Assembly (NCBI GenBank): GCA_040754675.1
Contig: JBFMCJ010000002.1
Coordinates: forward strand, 1-34,021
Reading direction: 5' to 3'
DNA length: 34,021 nt
Source: Bacillota bacterium
GTDB lineage: Bacteria; Bacillota; Limnochordia; Limnochordales; Geochordaceae
The position numbers were made by a program, and so were the translations under genes. A model generated the notes under the pieces. It had not been told where the DNA came from, did not search any database, and worked only from the letters and a program-made list of their open reading frames with translations. Below, piece by piece: positions 11,709-25,180 of the stretch (positions are counted from its first letter, which is position 1; each line of letters starts with the position of its first letter).

Positions 11709-13010
11709 TCACGGCACGATCAATGCGGCCACTGCCAGGACGACTCCCGCCAGAGCGGCAGCCATCAACCACCGGCTCTGCGTGCGGAGTGATTCCACTT
11801 CCGCCTGCAAATCCCGCTGAGCGGTCAACTGGCCGCCCGGGTCGCGAACCAGGTTCTTCACGATTTCGTCCGTGCGGGCCCGCTCCTGCTCCAGGGCGGC
11901 ACGCAGGCTGTCGACCTCGCTTCTGAGCTGGCGCCGCTCCTGCTCCGATGCCGCGAGCTGCTGGCGCAGGGTGGCAAGATCGGCGTTCAGCTTGTCGATC
12001 TGGGCGGTCGACGCCTGCAGGCGCTGCAGGCTCTCCTGTTGGGCGCTCAGCAGCGCTCCGGCCTGTTCGGGCTGGATCCCGCTCCGGCTGAGCGACGTGA
12101 TGAGCGTGTCGAGGTTTGTCCGGAGAGTGCCCAGTTCCTGCTGCTGGGCCTGAAGCGCCGCCTGGAGCTGCTGCAACTGGGCGCTGGAGGCCTGAAGGCG
12201 CTGGGAGGTGGCCTGCCCTTCCGCCTGGATCTGCCCCACCAGGTCCTGCGTGAGAGCCTGGATGTGGTTTTGCAGCGAGGCAGTCGTGCGCTCCAGGGCC
12301 TGAACGGATTGGCTCATCCCGACCAGTTCGACCCTGCGCGCCGCGAGATCCCGGTCCAGGCCGTCAAGGCGGCCCTGAAGGTCCTGGATTACCGTGCCGA
12401 GCCCCTTGGCCGTGTTCTCCACCTGGGTAACGCGCTGGGAGACGCCGCCAAGCTGCTGGTTGAGCGTCTGCGTCGCCTGCTCGACCTGCGTGAGCCTGCG
12501 GTCCGAGGCGGCGGCGTTCTGGGAGAACTGGGCCAGTACCTCGGTCAGCTTCGCGTCGATGCGGCTCACGTCCCGCGCCCCGGCGTCCAGGCGCTGGTTC
12601 ACCTGCGAACGCTGGTCCTGCCAGCGAGCAAGCTCCTCCCGGAACTCGTTGGTCAACTGCCGGACCAGCCGCAGGTCGTCGCCGGAGAGGCGGGTCTGGC
12701 CGCTCTCGACGTCCTGCAAGAGCCGGGCGATGACGGCGGCCAGGGTGTAGCGGTCAACGGGCCTCGATCCGTCGAACCGGCCCGCCTGCAGCGTGAGGTA
12801 TCCCCGCTGCACCAGCGTCACCACGGCCTGATACGCCCAGTGCTCGGGCCGCACGTCGGTGATGGTGGGCTCTGCCTGGGAGGCCTGGGCCTGTGCCACC
12901 GGCACGGCCGGCCCGAGCGCCGCCGCGGCGGCCACCACACCCGCCAGCAGGGTCGTTGCCCAGCGGGCCGGGAACAGGCGCTTGCCCATCATGTTGAGAG
13001 ATCCCTCCAT
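11709..13010 (-). CDS. Exported SLH-domain coiled-coil protein with C-terminal membrane helix
   Basis: A 433-residue secreted protein. It has an N-terminal signal peptide (charged MGKRLFPARW, then an alanine-rich core, cleavage near AQA-Q) and a single SLH domain (about 50-105, 'ITDVRPEHWAYQAVVTLVQRGYL' then 'FDGSRPVDRYTLAAVIARLL'). About 290 residues of coiled coil rich in Gln, Leu, Ala and Arg follow. The end is a C-terminal hydrophobic helix ('WLMAAALAGVVLAVAALIVP') at the stop. SLH domains bind pyruvylated cell-wall polymers, so this molecule could bridge peptidoglycan and a membrane. In diderm Bacillota, OmpM has SLH plus coiled coil plus a beta-barrel; here the barrel is replaced by one helix. 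Starts at 13010 (AGAGGG six bases upstream) and 12992 (GGAGGG ten upstream) are both plausible. The gene follows the cohesin-like gene by 36 bases. Confidence 0.85.
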   Translation of the reverse strand: MEGSLNMMGKRLFPARWATTLLAGVVAAAAALGPAVPVAQAQASQAEPTITDVRPEHWAYQAVVTLVQRGYLTLQAGRFDGSRPVDRYTLAAVIARLLQDVESGQTRLSGDDLRLVRQLTNEFREELARWQDQRSQVNQRLDAGARDVSRIDAKLTEVLAQFSQNAAASDRRLTQVEQATQTLNQQLGGVSQRVTQVENTAKGLGTVIQDLQGRLDGLDRDLAARRVELVGMSQSVQALERTTASLQNHIQALTQDLVGQIQAEGQATSQRLQASSAQLQQLQAALQAQQQELGTLRTNLDTLITSLSRSGIQPEQAGALLSAQQESLQRLQASTAQIDKLNADLATLRQQLAASEQERRQLRSEVDSLRAALEQERARTDEIVKNLVRDPGGQLTAQRDLQAEVESLRTQSRWLMAAALAGVVLAVAALIVP

Positions 13011-13046
13011 ACCAAGCCCTCTTGCGTGAGTTTGGCTCGCAGGCGC

Positions 13047-15206
13047 TCATGACCCGCCCGGGGATCGGGCAGGCGCGGTCGGCCCTGTCCCCACCGCGAC
13101 CCCCAGCTGTGGCCGCTTGCCTTCCGGGCTGATGCGATAGACCACCTGCCCCGCCGCGTCCCGGAACTCTGCCGCTACCACCTGCACGGCACCCTGTCCG
13201 GTGCGGCTCGCCACCAGCCGGAGCACCAGCAGGCTCGCCGTCCCCTGGGACTCGACGGGTGACGAGGCTTCGATGCTTACCTTCCCTGCCTCGTCGTCCG
13301 CCGCGCGTACCGAGAAGCCAGGCGCCGCACCGCCTGCAGCCGGGCCGCCGGTCTGTGAGGAGGGGGACGTCCCCACGAACAGAGTCCCGCGGTCCACGGC
13401 CAGAGCACCGCCTGCCAGCCGCATCACGGCCGGGTCGAATGCGACGTCGATGCGGGCGGTAGAAAACCTCGGCAGGTTTCGAGCCCGGATCTCAACGTTG
13501 AACGCCTGCCCCGGGGAGAGGTCCCCGGTGTCCGGCCACCCTGCCCCCGGCACCACCAGGATCTCGGCGTCCCTCGGCGGGACGATGACCGTATTGGTGG
13601 GAACCGGCTGCTCCCCTGCTCCGGGGTAGGTCACCCTGAGCGAGTATGGAATGTTGCCGGACGCACCGGTGGGCTTCACGAGCCACCGCAGTTCCACCTG
13701 CTCCTCGGGCCGCAGGGTCCCGACATAGCGGCGGTCGCTGTCGCCCGGAGCCACCTTGAGGCCGTACGGGGTCAACAGCTGCGCGGATACCTGGTACGCC
13801 TCCACCCCTCCGTCGTTGCGGACAACCCCCGTGACCTGGAAAGGATCCGGGCTCCACTGCCCGTCCATCACATCCAGGCGGGCCGGCCCCCGCAGCTGGA
13901 CCCACAGCCGGGCGGGGGTCACCACGCGCAAGCCGCGGCGCGCCTCGTTGGGTTCCGCGTTGGCAGCCTCCGCGCGGACTGAGAAGGTGAGTTGGGCCGG
14001 CGAAGTCGCGGTGACCCGCGCCGCCCACGTCGCCTGCGCCGTCTGGCCCGGCGGGATCTCACCAAGCTCGCGCACGGCTGACTCGCCCGGTAAAAGATCG
14101 AGCCCTCCCGGAAGCTCAAGCGACACCCTGGTCTCCCGCGCGGCGCCGCGCCCCGTGTTCTGCACGTACGCCAGGATCGTCACGGGCTCGGTCTGGCCGA
14201 TGACCGCCATCTCCGGGCTCGACAGCCCCACGGCAAGCTGCCCGGGGACGATGCTGATGCCGCCCATCCCGTAGTAGACAACGATGGACCGGCTCTGCCC
14301 GGGCTGCACCTCCTGCGGGTCAAAGAACAGCGCCACCGCGCTGTCCAGCTCGTACTCGCCCTTCCGCTCAAATGTCCGTCCGGGCGCGAAGTCGAACTCC
14401 CAGAGGCTGTCCCGCAGGACGCCCCAGTTGGTGAAGTAGACGCGGTCAGGCGGCGTCACCTCGCCGCCCCGCAGCGTCCCCTGGGCGATGACCGCCGGCT
14501 GGGCCAGCGAGTCGAAGGCCTGCCAGAACTCGGGCATCTCCTGCTGGGAGCGGGAAAGTACCGTGTCGCTCTCGACCGCCCGCTCCCCCACGCGGAACGG
14601 CGCCCCGTCGTTGCTTCCAGCCATCGCGTCCAGCACGACCCGGAAGCCGATCGGGTGAGGCTTCTGGTCGTTGTTGATGGCCACGTACTCAATGCGAACG
14701 GTGTCAGGCAGGCCGGTCGTGCGTCCCCGGGCAATGCTCAGGCGCTGGACCACCTCGATGCCGGCGGGGTACTGCCAGGCGGCCTCGATCTCCTGTCCGC
14801 CCTGGACCAGCCGCGGCGCCGTCACGGGCCGCCCGAAGGGCCCGTCCTTGCCGGCCGGCAGGTGGGTTGGCCCTCCAAACACATAGGAGGTGCCGTCGAT
14901 GCGAACCGTCGTGAACGAAGTCCAGGGCTCCTCGCCCCCGTAGATGAGGGGACGGTTGTTGTCGTCACCGCGCTCCGGGTTGCCCCCCGTGGTGCTGACG
15001 GAGAAACGCCCGGTGGCATCCGGGGAGTTGTTCACCACCACCCGGATGTACTCGTTGAACAGCTCGACGCGACCCGGCCCCCCGGGGGCCTCCTGGGTGT
15101 GGGCCTGCCCTCCCAGGGCCAGCATGGCCAGGATGCCTGCCACAAGAATGCGTCTTCTCGCGCTTTTCCCCGAGGAGGCGCCCTCCTGGCGCGAATACGT
15201 CCTCAT
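13047..15206 (-). CDS. Secreted multidomain protein with CARDB and cohesin-like domains
   Basis: A large exported protein of about 719 residues. A basic stretch (SARRR) and hydrophobic 'ILVAGILAMLALGGQA' form a signal peptide. The next ~300 residues ('FNEYIRVVVNNSPDATGRFSVSTTGG...') are an unrecognised beta-rich domain with many aromatic and Gly residues. Two immunoglobulin-like repeats follow. One is CARDB-like ('VTILAYVQNTGRGAARETRVSLELP', then 'LGEIPPGQTAQATWAARV'), and a similar one begins at 'FQVTGVVRNDGGVEAYQV'. The C-terminal ~130 residues look like a cohesin fold ('LSPGQAFNVEIRARNL', 'ARIDVAFDPAVMRLAG', 'ASLLVLRLVA'). No catalytic motif is visible, so a structural or binding role outside the cell is inferred. 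ATG at 15206 has GGTGA about 11 bases upstream; GTG at 15221 is an alternative. It lies just after tonB. Confidence 0.8.
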   Translation of the reverse strand: MRTYSRQEGASSGKSARRRILVAGILAMLALGGQAHTQEAPGGPGRVELFNEYIRVVVNNSPDATGRFSVSTTGGNPERGDDNNRPLIYGGEEPWTSFTTVRIDGTSYVFGGPTHLPAGKDGPFGRPVTAPRLVQGGQEIEAAWQYPAGIEVVQRLSIARGRTTGLPDTVRIEYVAINNDQKPHPIGFRVVLDAMAGSNDGAPFRVGERAVESDTVLSRSQQEMPEFWQAFDSLAQPAVIAQGTLRGGEVTPPDRVYFTNWGVLRDSLWEFDFAPGRTFERKGEYELDSAVALFFDPQEVQPGQSRSIVVYYGMGGISIVPGQLAVGLSSPEMAVIGQTEPVTILAYVQNTGRGAARETRVSLELPGGLDLLPGESAVRELGEIPPGQTAQATWAARVTATSPAQLTFSVRAEAANAEPNEARRGLRVVTPARLWVQLRGPARLDVMDGQWSPDPFQVTGVVRNDGGVEAYQVSAQLLTPYGLKVAPGDSDRRYVGTLRPEEQVELRWLVKPTGASGNIPYSLRVTYPGAGEQPVPTNTVIVPPRDAEILVVPGAGWPDTGDLSPGQAFNVEIRARNLPRFSTARIDVAFDPAVMRLAGGALAVDRGTLFVGTSPSSQTGGPAAGGAAPGFSVRAADDEAGKVSIEASSPVESQGTASLLVLRLVASRTGQGAVQVVAAEFRDAAGQVVYRISPEGKRPQLGVAVGTGPTAPARSPGGS

Positions 15207-15230
15207 ACCTTGCTGTGTCACCTGCCCCGA

Positions 15231-16154
15231 TTACAGGTAAGTCACGCGCTCGCTGACCAGGCGGTAGCTCACGCTTGGCTGGGCGCGGCCCTGTTCGTCC
15301 CGGGTAATGGCGAAGTCGAACAGCACGGTCAGACGATACGGCCGCTTAACGGAAGAGGGCTTGAAGCGCCACCGGTCACGAACCCACCGCTCGGCAAAGG
15401 CGTCCAGCTGGGTCCCCGTGCGCTGCTTGAACGCCACGCTGCTGATGCTGCCATCCACACTGACGGTGATCTCCAAAAGCACCTGCCCCTGGGCACCGTA
15501 CGTCAGGGCGTTCTTCGGGTAGATCGGCGGGCTTGAGTCCACCACCATGGCCGCCGTGAGATCGGGTTCAGGGGGGCCCGGCGGGGGGTTGTCCTCCCGG
15601 ACGCCACCGGTCCCTGCACTGTCCTGGCGGGTCAGCGGACCCTCCGCCTCGGCCTCCTTCTGCGTCTCGGGTTGGGCACTCTTAGCCGCCGGCTCCCTGG
15701 GTGCAGCCGCGACGGCCACTGCAGGCCCGCGTTCCGAGGTGAGCACCTGCTGAGTCGACTTCGGGGACGTGCTGGAAACGGGAGCCGGCCGGGGCGCCAC
15801 CTGCGCCTTGTCAGGCGCCGGCGCGGGGGCCGACGTCTTGGGAGTGACCTGCGGCTTGGGCTTTTCCGCCACAACCTTGGCGGCAGCAGGCGGCGCCTTC
15901 TTGCTCTCCTGGCCGGACCCTCCCGCCGCGGAACTCTCCCGGGCGGGGCGCGGCGAGACCGGGCCGGGCGCCGGCGCGGGCGCCACCGGGATCACCTGCA
16001 CCACCGCCCCTTCGCTCTTGGGCAGCACGAAGCGATCGGTGAGGATCACCCGCGAAAGGACGAGCAGCAGTATGGCGTGCAGCAGGAGCGAAACCCCAAC
16101 GAACGGCTCAAGCCGCCCCGGCTGTTGCGACGGTCCCGTTTTCGCCGCCATCAT
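15231..16154 (-). CDS. tonB: TonB family energy-transducing protein
   Basis: A 307-residue protein with classic TonB layout: a short cytoplasmic start, then one membrane helix ('FVGVSLLLHAILLLVLSRVIL') carrying the S...H spacing essential in TonB. A ~150-residue proline/alanine/lysine-rich periplasmic spacer follows. The C-terminal TonB domain has 'PIYPKNALTYGAQGQVLLEITVSVDGSI' and 'DRWRFKP'. With ExbB and ExbD upstream, it would transmit the proton gradient to an outer-membrane partner. No TonB-dependent receptor lies in the window. Starts are ambiguous. ATG at 16154 (with another ATG next to it) follows a GGGG stretch. GTG at 16205 directly follows the exbD stop and has GGAG about 11 bases upstream. 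The shorter form is given. This protein implies a periplasm-spanning need in a spore-former. Confidence 0.9.
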   Translation of the reverse strand: MMAAKTGPSQQPGRLEPFVGVSLLLHAILLLVLSRVILTDRFVLPKSEGAVVQVIPVAPAPAPGPVSPRPARESSAAGGSGQESKKAPPAAAKVVAEKPKPQVTPKTSAPAPAPDKAQVAPRPAPVSSTSPKSTQQVLTSERGPAVAVAAAPREPAAKSAQPETQKEAEAEGPLTRQDSAGTGGVREDNPPPGPPEPDLTAAMVVDSSPPIYPKNALTYGAQGQVLLEITVSVDGSISSVAFKQRTGTQLDAFAERWVRDRWRFKPSSVKRPYRLTVLFDFAITRDEQGRAQPSVSYRLVSERVTYL

Positions 16155-16205
16155 GGCCCCGCCATTCACCCCTGCACCGGGCCGGGCTATGGGACCCCTC
16201 CACAC

Positions 16206-16631
16206 TCACCGTCCCGCTCCGGACGCCGCACTGGTGAGCTCCACCGCCAGCCCCAGGCGGTAGGCCCCCGCCCGGCGCAGCACGTCGATGGCCTGCACCA
16301 CCAGGTCGTACTTGATCCCCTTATCGGCCCGGACGATGACGAGCTGGTCCGGCCGGCGCCGCACCGCGTCCCCCACCAGGGCGCCCATCTGCGCCAGGTT
16401 CACGGGACGCCCGTCCACGTAGTAGCGCCCCGCCCGGTCGATGGTCACCACCAGTTCCGGAGAGGCCTCCCGGGTGGCGGTGACCGCCCGGGGCAGGTCA
16501 AGCCTCAAGGTCGCCGGTTCGGTGCGAAACGTGGTGAAAACCATGAAGAACGCCAGCAGGAAGAACATCACGTCGACCATGTTGATGATCTCGACGCGAG
16601 GCCGCCCGCGAACGGTTCGTGTGATGGCCAC
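16206..16631 (-). CDS. exbD: ExbD/TolR family proton-channel subunit
   Basis: A 141-residue protein with one N-terminal membrane helix, 'INMVDVMFFLLAFFMVFTTF', including Asp20, the conserved protonatable residue of ExbD/TolR/MotB. A periplasmic domain of about 100 residues follows, with 'RRRPDQLVIVRADKGIKYDLVVQAIDVLRRAGAYRLGLAVE' matching the conserved ExbD C-terminal fold. It pairs with ExbB to form the motor. The start is GTG at 16631, nine bases after the exbB stop; the stop TGA touches the possible GTG start of tonB. ExbD is preferred over TolR because tonB follows and no tolA, tolB or pal is in sight. Confidence 0.93.
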   Translation of the reverse strand: MAITRTVRGRPRVEIINMVDVMFFLLAFFMVFTTFRTEPATLRLDLPRAVTATREASPELVVTIDRAGRYYVDGRPVNLAQMGALVGDAVRRRPDQLVIVRADKGIKYDLVVQAIDVLRRAGAYRLGLAVELTSAASGAGR

Positions 16632-16640
16632 GACCCTGCG

Positions 16641-17267
16641 CTAGCTCCTTCCGCGGACCTCAGAGAGGAGTTGCAAAAACTGGGACGTCGTCCGGTTGAG
16701 GGCCGCCACCCGGCGGTCGATGATCCCGGACAGGTACACGTAGACGAACAGCACCGGCACCGCGATGGTGAGCCCTGCAGCCGTAGTGATCAGCGCTTCT
16801 GCGATGCCCGCGCTCAAGCCCGACGGTTCAACCCCCTCCATGGCCGCCAGGATCCGGAAGCTGCGGATGATACCGGTGACCGTTCCAAGAAGCCCCAGCA
16901 TGGGCGCGCCCGTGACGATGGCATCGAGCCACGCCATGCGGCTTTCCATCTTCTGGACCTCGTCCTGACCCACCCGCTCGATGCGCGCCCGTACTTCTTC
17001 CAGAGGGCGGTCCCACGCCGCCAGCCCCTCCGCCAGCACCGCAGAGGTTGGGCCGTTTGCCCTTCGAATCGTCTGCATCGCTTCGAGCAGCCGCCCCTCG
17101 TGGACGAGGATGCGGAGCTCGTCCATGATGCGGTCGGAGTCGCCGCGAAGCTTGGCAAAGTACCACAGACGTTCGAGGCTGATGGCGACGGCGAATACCG
17201 AGACGAGGCCCAGCGGAATCATGACCGGGCCGCCCTTGACCAGAATGTCAACCACGGTGGCGAACAT
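16641..17267 (-). CDS. exbB: MotA/TolQ/ExbB family proton-channel protein
   Basis: A 208-residue protein with three membrane segments: an N-terminal helix ('VMIPLGLVSVFAVAISLERL') and a C-terminal pair containing 'GAPMLGLLGTVTGIIRSF' and 'GIAEALITTAAGLTIAVPVLFVYVYL', signature sequences of ExbB/TolQ. The Thr residues in these stretches correspond to the polar residues lining the proton path. It forms the stator pentamer with the ExbD dimer. ATG at 17267 follows a very good GAGGAGG site four bases upstream. It is the first gene of the envelope cluster, with a 195-base spacer upstream that presumably carries the promoter. Confidence 0.94.
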   Translation of the reverse strand: MFATVVDILVKGGPVMIPLGLVSVFAVAISLERLWYFAKLRGDSDRIMDELRILVHEGRLLEAMQTIRRANGPTSAVLAEGLAAWDRPLEEVRARIERVGQDEVQKMESRMAWLDAIVTGAPMLGLLGTVTGIIRSFRILAAMEGVEPSGLSAGIAEALITTAAGLTIAVPVLFVYVYLSGIIDRRVAALNRTTSQFLQLLSEVRGRS

Positions 17268-23378: not shown

Positions 23379-24023
23379 TTATACCTCCCATCCCAAGAAC
23401 CCCAGCAACAGCCGCGCCGCCGACACACCCAGGACCTCCACCGCAGCAGCCGCTGCCGTTGCGCCGAGGAAACGCAGGCCCGCGCGGCAGTACGCGCCGA
23501 ACGCCGCCGGAAGCCAGACGGACGAAGCGCCCAGCATGGATCGCCCGCACGCGGCAGCGAACGCCAGCGCCTCCCCCGCCGCGCCCAGGGTGGCATACAG
23601 CCCGAGGAGATGCGCCGGCAGCGCGCTCAGCGCCAGGAGCGGCACACCCCTCGGCCCCCAACCGACCAGCGCCGATCCGAGCACGATGCCGGCGGTGTAG
23701 CTACGCAGCACGGCGGCGCCCACAGCCAGCGGGCTGGCCACGACGCTCAGGCCGAAAAGCCAGACGGCCGCGGCCCCCCAGGCAAGCTGCCGCCCCAGGG
23801 CAGCTGCCAGCGGCCCCCAGGGCCCGTCTCCCTCCGGCCAGACCCACGCGGCGTAAAGGGCGGGCGTAGGGGCCTGTTCGGGGGCGGCAAGCGCGTGGTG
23901 AACCCCAACCCCGAAGGCGGCTGCGGCCAGGGCCGTCATCACGAGACGCACGGCGCCCGGCGCACTCGCCGCGGTTGCGCCCGGAGCAGGGGTGCCCCAT
24001 GCCAGAAGGCCGCTCCCCCTCAC
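23379..24023 (-). CDS. spoIIM: Stage II sporulation protein M-like membrane protein
   Basis: An alanine/leucine-rich, multi-pass membrane protein of 214 residues, the typical SpoIIM length. Its central '[32 protein letters not shown]' and '[27 protein letters not shown]' segments match the SpoIIM pattern, including a conserved-type Pro-His/Asn before a long hydrophobic stretch. In Bacillus, SpoIIM with SpoIID and SpoIIP drives septal peptidoglycan hydrolysis and engulfment. GTG at 24023 overlaps the upstream stop by four bases (GTGA), preceded by GGGGGG, and fixes the start; a longer frame from 24098 only mirrors the neighbour. The sequence is highly divergent, so synteny is part of the evidence. 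Confidence 0.75.
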
Positions 24024-25180
24024 GAAGAGCCCCCCGCTCCGGCCGCCGGGCTCGCCGCTTCCCACAGCATGGCAAGCACCCGGCCGGCCGAAAGGCATGC
24101 ATCAAAGAAGGGCGGGTCGTCTTGCGGCGTGCGTCCCATGCTTTCAGGGGCGACGGGCAACCGAAAGAGTGCCGGGCGAACGGGGGCGGGGTCCACCTCC
24201 ACGACCCGGTGCCGGGCGAGGAGGCCGCTTCTGCTCAACTGCCGGATCACCGCGCTGCGAAAACGTCCGGGAAGCGACCCGGGGAGGACCAAAAGGGCCG
24301 GCCTCGCCGTGATCCGCCCGAACGCCAGCCGGTCGTGGTGGCTCAAGCCCCGGTGCCGGGCCCTCGCGTCCCGCAGGGACAGCCGTGGCACCAGCACGGG
24401 TGCTGCGCCGAGAGCCCCCGCCAGGTCGCACAGGGACGCAGCCTCCAGGCACGTATGGCCCAGCGCGGTGGCCGTGCCCACCACCCCCGGGCCCGGGCCC
24501 AGAATCACCACGTCGGCCCCCGCCCTCTGCGCGACGGCCAGGGCTGAGGCGGGATGCACCGCCTCCATGTCTCCCCCGAAGGCCTGGCCTGAGGTGATGA
24601 CGAGTCCGATGATGCGGGCCCGCCGCAGCAGGTGAAGGTAACGGCTCACGTGGGCCGGAAGCGCGGCCGAATCCGTCATCACGTACGCTACCTTCAGGTC
24701 TGGCGAACACCCGGCGGCCCACCGGCACGCGGCGGCAACCACCCCTACCATGCTGTGGAGCGACACGACCGCAACGGGCAGCCCCCGCAGGTCCGGAGCG
24801 TCCCGTACGGCACGGTGGTAGGGGCCGGCCGGCTCCTCGGCCGCCATGACGGCAAGCTGCACCGGCGTGTAGCGGAGCTTCATGATATGCCCGTGCCGCC
24901 GGCTGGCGGGCGGCGTGGCCCAGCCCCCCGCCAGCGGTGGAGGGTCGAGCGGCGCCACCACGACGTGCTGCCCGCCGGTTCCCAGACCCAGGCTGACCGC
25001 CGTGGTGTTGAGCAACACGCGCTGCCCGGGAAACCAGGCCTCGTAGCTCAGGTCACAAAAAGCCCATGCCCGCCCGCTCGAGGGGTCACCCGGGCCTGGG
25101 TCAATGTCAACCAAAAGATCGATCCTGCGGCCTTGCCGCCCCACCACCTGCCGCACGACGCCCGCACGAAGCTCCATCAT
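24020..25180 (-). CDS. DUF3866 family protein
   Basis: A 386-residue protein of the DUF3866 family, known in spore-forming Bacillota next to spoIIM. It opens with 'RAGVVRQVVGRQGRRIDLLVDI' and contains 'GQRVLLNTTAVSLGLGTGGQHVVVAPL', 'RHGHIMKLRYTPVQLAVMAAEEP' and a central alpha/beta region ('VAVVSLHSMVGVVAAACRW', 'VAYVMTDSAALPAHVSRYL', 'VVILGPGPGVVGTATALGHTCLEAASL'). No enzymatic motif is recognised and its biochemical role is unknown. There is no signal peptide and no membrane segment. The start is a tandem ATG pair at 25180/25177 with GGGG immediately before. It shares a GTGA overlap with spoIIM, so the two are probably co-translated. Confidence 0.87.
   Translation of the reverse strand: MMELRAGVVRQVVGRQGRRIDLLVDIDPGPGDPSSGRAWAFCDLSYEAWFPGQRVLLNTTAVSLGLGTGGQHVVVAPLDPPPLAGGWATPPASRRHGHIMKLRYTPVQLAVMAAEEPAGPYHRAVRDAPDLRGLPVAVVSLHSMVGVVAAACRWAAGCSPDLKVAYVMTDSAALPAHVSRYLHLLRRARIIGLVITSGQAFGGDMEAVHPASALAVAQRAGADVVILGPGPGVVGTATALGHTCLEAASLCDLAGALGAAPVLVPRLSLRDARARHRGLSHHDRLAFGRITARPALLVLPGSLPGRFRSAVIRQLSRSGLLARHRVVEVDPAPVRPALFRLPVAPESMGRTPQDDPPFFDACLSAGRVLAMLWEAASPAAGAGGSS

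Follow-up and report, generated by a model that had tools for sequence, protein, structure and literature searches.

Five adjacent genes of a Limnochordia genome, encoding an ExbB-ExbD motor, a TonB-like force transducer, a secreted protein of 724 residues and an SLH/coiled-coil protein, were found to make up a module of constant composition and order. By analogy with Tol-Pal, we give about even chances to the proposal that these five genes specify a proton-driven trans-envelope link, connecting the outer membrane to the wall in diderm Bacillota.

The genes follow each other in tandem on the minus strand, between positions 11709 and 17267 of the window, that is, the whole stretch of 34,021 nucleotides that was analysed (Table 1). 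Their close spacing, pointed out in the original prediction, was confirmed: gaps along the exbB-exbD-tonB-724-SLH run measure 9, 0, 9 and 36 bases. A search of the region for sigma-70 promoters found none, the outcome being at about chance level, so that co-transcription is proposed on the basis of spacing and conservation only.

Table 1. Coordinates of the module genes in the window and of selected genes at related loci. The three hydrolase genes are examples, eight more loci having one.
Feature	Locus	Coordinates	Strand	Evidence
exbB/tolQ-family motor subunit, 208 aa	window	16641..17267	-	PF01618 E 1.9e-28
exbD/tolR-family motor subunit, 141 aa	window	16206..16631	-	PF02472 E 6.4e-28
TonB-like force transducer, 324 aa	window	15231..16205	-	PF03544 E 3.5e-10
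Secreted multi-beta-sandwich protein, 724 aa	window	13047..15221	-	NEW3 PF10633 E 1.8e-9
SLH/coiled-coil protein, 433 aa	window	11709..13010	-	SLH by homologues and profile
Long SLH protein, family f12	L050	2731-7074		
Long SLH protein, family f12	L068	8862-13304		
Cell-wall hydrolase	L148	11593-12177		PF07486
Cell-wall hydrolase	L206	8757-9335		PF07486
Cell-wall hydrolase	L140	11589-12212		PF07486

The original prediction had allowed that the five genes might turn out scattered in close relatives. They do not; the order is kept there and far beyond the class. The 724-aa protein was present in 59 of 61 genomes (the source genome and 60 relatives), and the exbB-exbD-tonB-724-SLH order was found in the 17-kb stretches from 39 relatives wherever the contig was long enough. 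When 84,980 species genomes were scanned, 233 relatives came up, the best 80 of which were examined for order and keep it; they include Orenia, Halonatronum, Halanaerobacter and Frackibacter (Halanaerobiales), as well as Hydrogenispora. Together these two sets amount to 119 loci, some representing one genome reached twice, and encode 88 different members of the 724-aa family. All five genes were detected in 98 of the 119 loci. They were strictly contiguous and on one strand in 96 of these 98, with median gaps from -1 to 18 bases, and the two non-contiguous loci seem to be artefacts of ORF calling where frames overlap. Where a gene was missing, a contig end cuts through the module in the loci examined. 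Finally, the order was kept at all uncut loci (19 of 19) of a third set of 20, drawn from additional families within the phylum; the TonB profile missed the ORF in the tonB slot in three loci of this set, and exbD was uncalled in one. Because it is kept over many families, this gene order is not a product of chance, and since the flanking genes vary by lineage, the constant unit consists of the five genes. Two class genomes (G027 and G054) have Omp85, and the 724-aa protein was not found in them.

Upstream of the module in the window lie a dacF-type carboxypeptidase, spoIIAA (STAS protein), spoIIAB (anti-sigma kinase) and a sigF-type factor, and an AAA protein of the spoVK type is encoded further downstream. 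The sporulation neighbourhood described earlier was thus recovered with the exception of spoIIM: Pfam matched nothing in the ORF at its expected position (23379-24098). Genes for an ABC ATPase and a GNAT protein adjoin the module without being members of it. At one checked Limnochordia locus, SpoVAC was found downstream. The association with spoIIAB-sigF belongs to the Limnochordia neighbourhood only; spo neighbours being largely confined to this lineage, they say little about function, and a sporulation link was dropped as a clue. A cell-wall hydrolase (PF07486) was detected just downstream of the SLH gene, mostly as the next gene, in 11 Halanaerobiales-type loci, which fits work where the wall meets the outer membrane.

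A TonB system had been taken to imply two membranes, and a search for outer-membrane assembly and LPS genes elsewhere in the genome had been proposed. The data agree with two membranes. The source genome (4.47 Mb in 795 contigs), whose named relatives are Limnochordia, encodes one Omp85 protein, and in cultivated Limnochordia an outer membrane is visible in thin section (PMC11456536). Omp85/BamA was found in 71 of 73 class genomes. In a genome of the same genus, the Omp85 neighbourhood holds TamB, OmpH and a BamA that has POTRA domains, and an SLH gene lies some 22 kb further on; the corresponding region of a more distant class member holds TamB, OmpH, LpxB and an SLH protein of 788 aa. These OmpM-like SLH proteins encoded near Omp85 in relatives imply that passive tethering may already be covered, a point against the tethering role proposed for the module.

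Co-distribution was analysed in 398 genomes spread evenly over the phylum. Of the 101 genomes with Omp85, 87 have the full-length 724-aa family; of the 297 without, 1 does (Fisher 1.5e-71; the sampled genomes are related, so this value overstates their independence, the pattern nonetheless spanning dozens of families). Within the sampled phylum the full-length family is therefore restricted to Omp85-bearing genomes, with one exception in 297. The 14 genomes with Omp85 only fall almost all within two families (f44 and f74), which we guess to be Negativicutes. These two families apart, the module is nearly as widespread in the sample as Omp85, and it is a usable marker of an outer membrane.

The motor subunits keep their functional residues: Thr129 and Thr162 of ExbB were invariant across 15 module homologues, as was the channel aspartate D20 of ExbD among module homologues. 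In NCBIfam scores they come nearer to TolQ/TolR than to ExbB/ExbD. A Tol affiliation on this ground was rejected, since the receptor-linked motors of the class score alike. In an ExbB tree, the receptor-linked proteins form one clade (100/100), whose position among the module sequences is weakly supported. The TonB-like protein consists of an N-terminal helix, a Pro/Ala-rich linker and a TonB C-terminal domain; H43, the histidine of the membrane helix, is one of its three invariant residues. The profile of the C-terminal domain matched PDB TonB domains (3e-12) much better than TolA (0.02), and the AF2 model of this domain (pLDDT 89.7) had TonB domains as top Foldseek matches. Most lineages, among them Halanaerobiales, also share a conserved L-T-S motif in the linker, ahead of the C-terminal domain.

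The 724-aa protein carries a signal peptide, a new conserved N-terminal domain (residues ~50-340, the best conserved part of the protein), a NEW3 domain (345-416), a beta-domain and a cohesin-like C-terminal domain; its homologues also have a signal peptide, mostly without lipobox. It had first been labelled CARDB/cohesin-like. The second half of the label holds, as the family profile matches cohesin structures in the C-terminal part and an Orenia homologue matches Pfam Cohesin (PF00963, E 2.5e-10). CARDB stayed below threshold, the domain above threshold being NEW3. No match was obtained with this protein in NCBIfam. Its model (pLDDT 88.4) is all-beta, a string of beta-sandwiches, for which a Foldseek search of the PDB gave no single known relative; proteins of generic multi-Ig type, the only candidates, were discarded, with TM below 0.3 among the matches listed. 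The N-terminal domain is also found in genomes that lack Omp85, as part of large secreted proteins of ~1300-2600 aa (L212-L216).

Most of the fifth protein is coiled coil, preceded by a signal peptide and an SLH domain of OmpM type and followed by a hydrophobic helix at the C-terminus. Pfam SLH was not called in the window protein itself; its homologues exceed the cut-off, and a profile including it matches OmpM SLH structures, the nearest being Veillonella OmpM (8bys/8bym), so the earlier SLH/coiled-coil label is kept. The terminal helix was present in 99 of 101 homologues, versus 1/108, 3/105 and 4/103 in three control proteins. In hydrophobicity it differs little from the inner-membrane helices encoded in the operon, a value that fits either membrane. 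A C-terminal Phe was sought in the 101 homologues and found in none. The length of the protein ranges from 213 to 1480 aa, and in family f12 it is about three times longer than elsewhere (1447-1480 aa).

Ordered by role, the module resembles E. coli tolQ-tolR-tolA-tolB-pal: motor, motor, transducer, soluble protein, wall-binding anchor. It differs in that the C-terminal domain of the transducer is of TonB and not TolA type, that the multi-beta-sandwich 724-aa protein stands in place of the TolB beta-propeller, and that Pal is an OmpA-domain outer-membrane lipoprotein whereas the fifth protein is of SLH/coiled-coil type. With no propeller, no Pal and a TonB-type domain, membership in the true Tol-Pal family was ruled out. 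OmpA-domain hits, obtained in most class genomes, at first resembled Pal; in the source genome the sole OmpA-domain protein is MotB, beside MotA. The SLH protein is like Omp-alpha (OmpA1) of Thermotoga maritima, which combines SLH, a long coiled coil and some 20 hydrophobic C-terminal residues (PMC3387000); the likeness is one of architecture, and the module protein differs by its constant link to a motor operon. OmpM of Negativicutes provides the nearest structures for the SLH domain, but the module protein ends in a hydrophobic helix and has no beta-barrel.

From this analogy we infer how the parts would work together. ExbB-ExbD would be the rotary motor in the inner membrane, and the TonB-like protein an arm crossing the periplasm, passing on force via its C-terminal domain. 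The 724-aa protein would act as a soluble periplasmic partner in the position of TolB. In that of Pal, the SLH/coiled-coil protein would be a wall-binding anchor, its SLH domain gripping peptidoglycan and its terminal helix being inserted in a membrane, most probably the outer membrane. By repeated cycles of pulling, the motor would load the anchor or release it, and the outer membrane would in this way keep up with the wall in growth, in division or in the engulfment of a spore. The probable role of the module is to pull the outer membrane to the wall or to hold it there, and not to import nutrients. This agrees with the suggestion, made in the original prediction, that the two secreted proteins are partners of the motor or stabilise the envelope. 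Some observations go against a tether: SLH proteins of 1447-1480 aa exceed the length that a plain rod across the periplasm would seem to require, the transducer domain resembles TonB and not TolA, and the 724-aa protein is no beta-propeller.

An ordinary Ton system is what the canonical sequences of ExbB, ExbD and TonB would suggest at first sight; the receptor would then be too divergent for detection and the two secreted genes mere neighbours. The source genome has no receptor Plug domain, which extends to the whole genome the earlier remark that no TonB-dependent receptor is present. Plug was absent from 64 of 73 class genomes and present in 9, where it detected receptors easily (E 1e-16 to 1e-32). 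A second TonB was found in 7 of the 9 Plug-bearing genomes and in 1 of the 64 others. In four of the five receptor loci inspected, the receptor gene is directly followed by exbB, exbD and tonB; the remaining locus has a receptor with tonB. Of 20 further genomes with the module, the majority from other classes, 11 lacked Plug as well. The secreted genes, moreover, keep their position over distant lineages. An ordinary Ton system with an overlooked receptor is therefore very improbable. The module shares homologous motor subunits and transducer with Ton systems, functional residues included, but has no receptor in most genomes and has two constant new partners, while receptors mostly come with a second TonB and often with their own motor. 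It is independent of TonB-dependent receptors and is not an ordinary Ton system. A few Limnochordia (loci L179-L182) have a canonical receptor-exbB-exbD-tonB operon besides the module.

Two other roles were considered. Motor and TonB might energise transport or secretion through an outer-membrane channel encoded elsewhere, an OmpM-type porin or another barrel, with the 724-aa protein serving as adaptor or in substrate binding and the SLH protein as scaffold. The receptor-driving type of the TonB domain is compatible with this, and cohesin-like and NEW3 domains often belong to binding proteins. However, the lineages seen show no barrel gene in constant linkage with the module; what the motor does have as constant companions is one soluble protein and one anchor that binds the wall, so that we consider a transport role unlikely. 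A motor for peptidoglycan remodelling or growth, exerting force on the wall or on hydrolases instead of the outer membrane, and possibly active in engulfment, would account for the wall-binding SLH domain, for the hydrolase gene adjoining the module in Halanaerobiales and for spoIIAB-sigF upstream and, in one case, SpoVAC downstream in Limnochordia. These hydrolase and spo neighbours are nevertheless lineage-specific, and a purely wall-directed motor fits poorly with the lack of the full-length 724-aa protein in all but one of the 297 sampled genomes without Omp85; we hold it to be quite unlikely.

The tethering proposal bears on a prediction in the literature. In a 2025 survey of force transducers, Tol-Pal was confined to Gracilicutes and, among diderm Firmicutes, Ton systems were detectable in Negativicutes only; the survey predicts further outer-membrane-stabilising systems yet to be found (PMC12204202), for which the module is a candidate. 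It would help to explain how diderm Bacillota hold and constrict their outer membrane without Tol-Pal; monoderms are believed to have evolved in part by losing such links between outer membrane and wall. A broader and more tentative reading, to which we give somewhat less than an even chance, is that diderm Bacillota outside Negativicutes have an ancient, unrecognised counterpart of Tol-Pal, in which ExbBD-TonB would energise an Omp-alpha-like anchor through a new family of beta-sandwich proteins, and that this counterpart was ancestral and lost with the outer membrane. The view that the module is undescribed is provisionally upheld, as no description of it was found in the open-access literature; the nearest is a remark in the 2009 genome paper of Halothermothrix orenii, where ExbB, ExbD and TonB occur together without a receptor (PMC2626281). 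Carriers of the module include cultivated Halanaerobiales, so the idea can be tested there.
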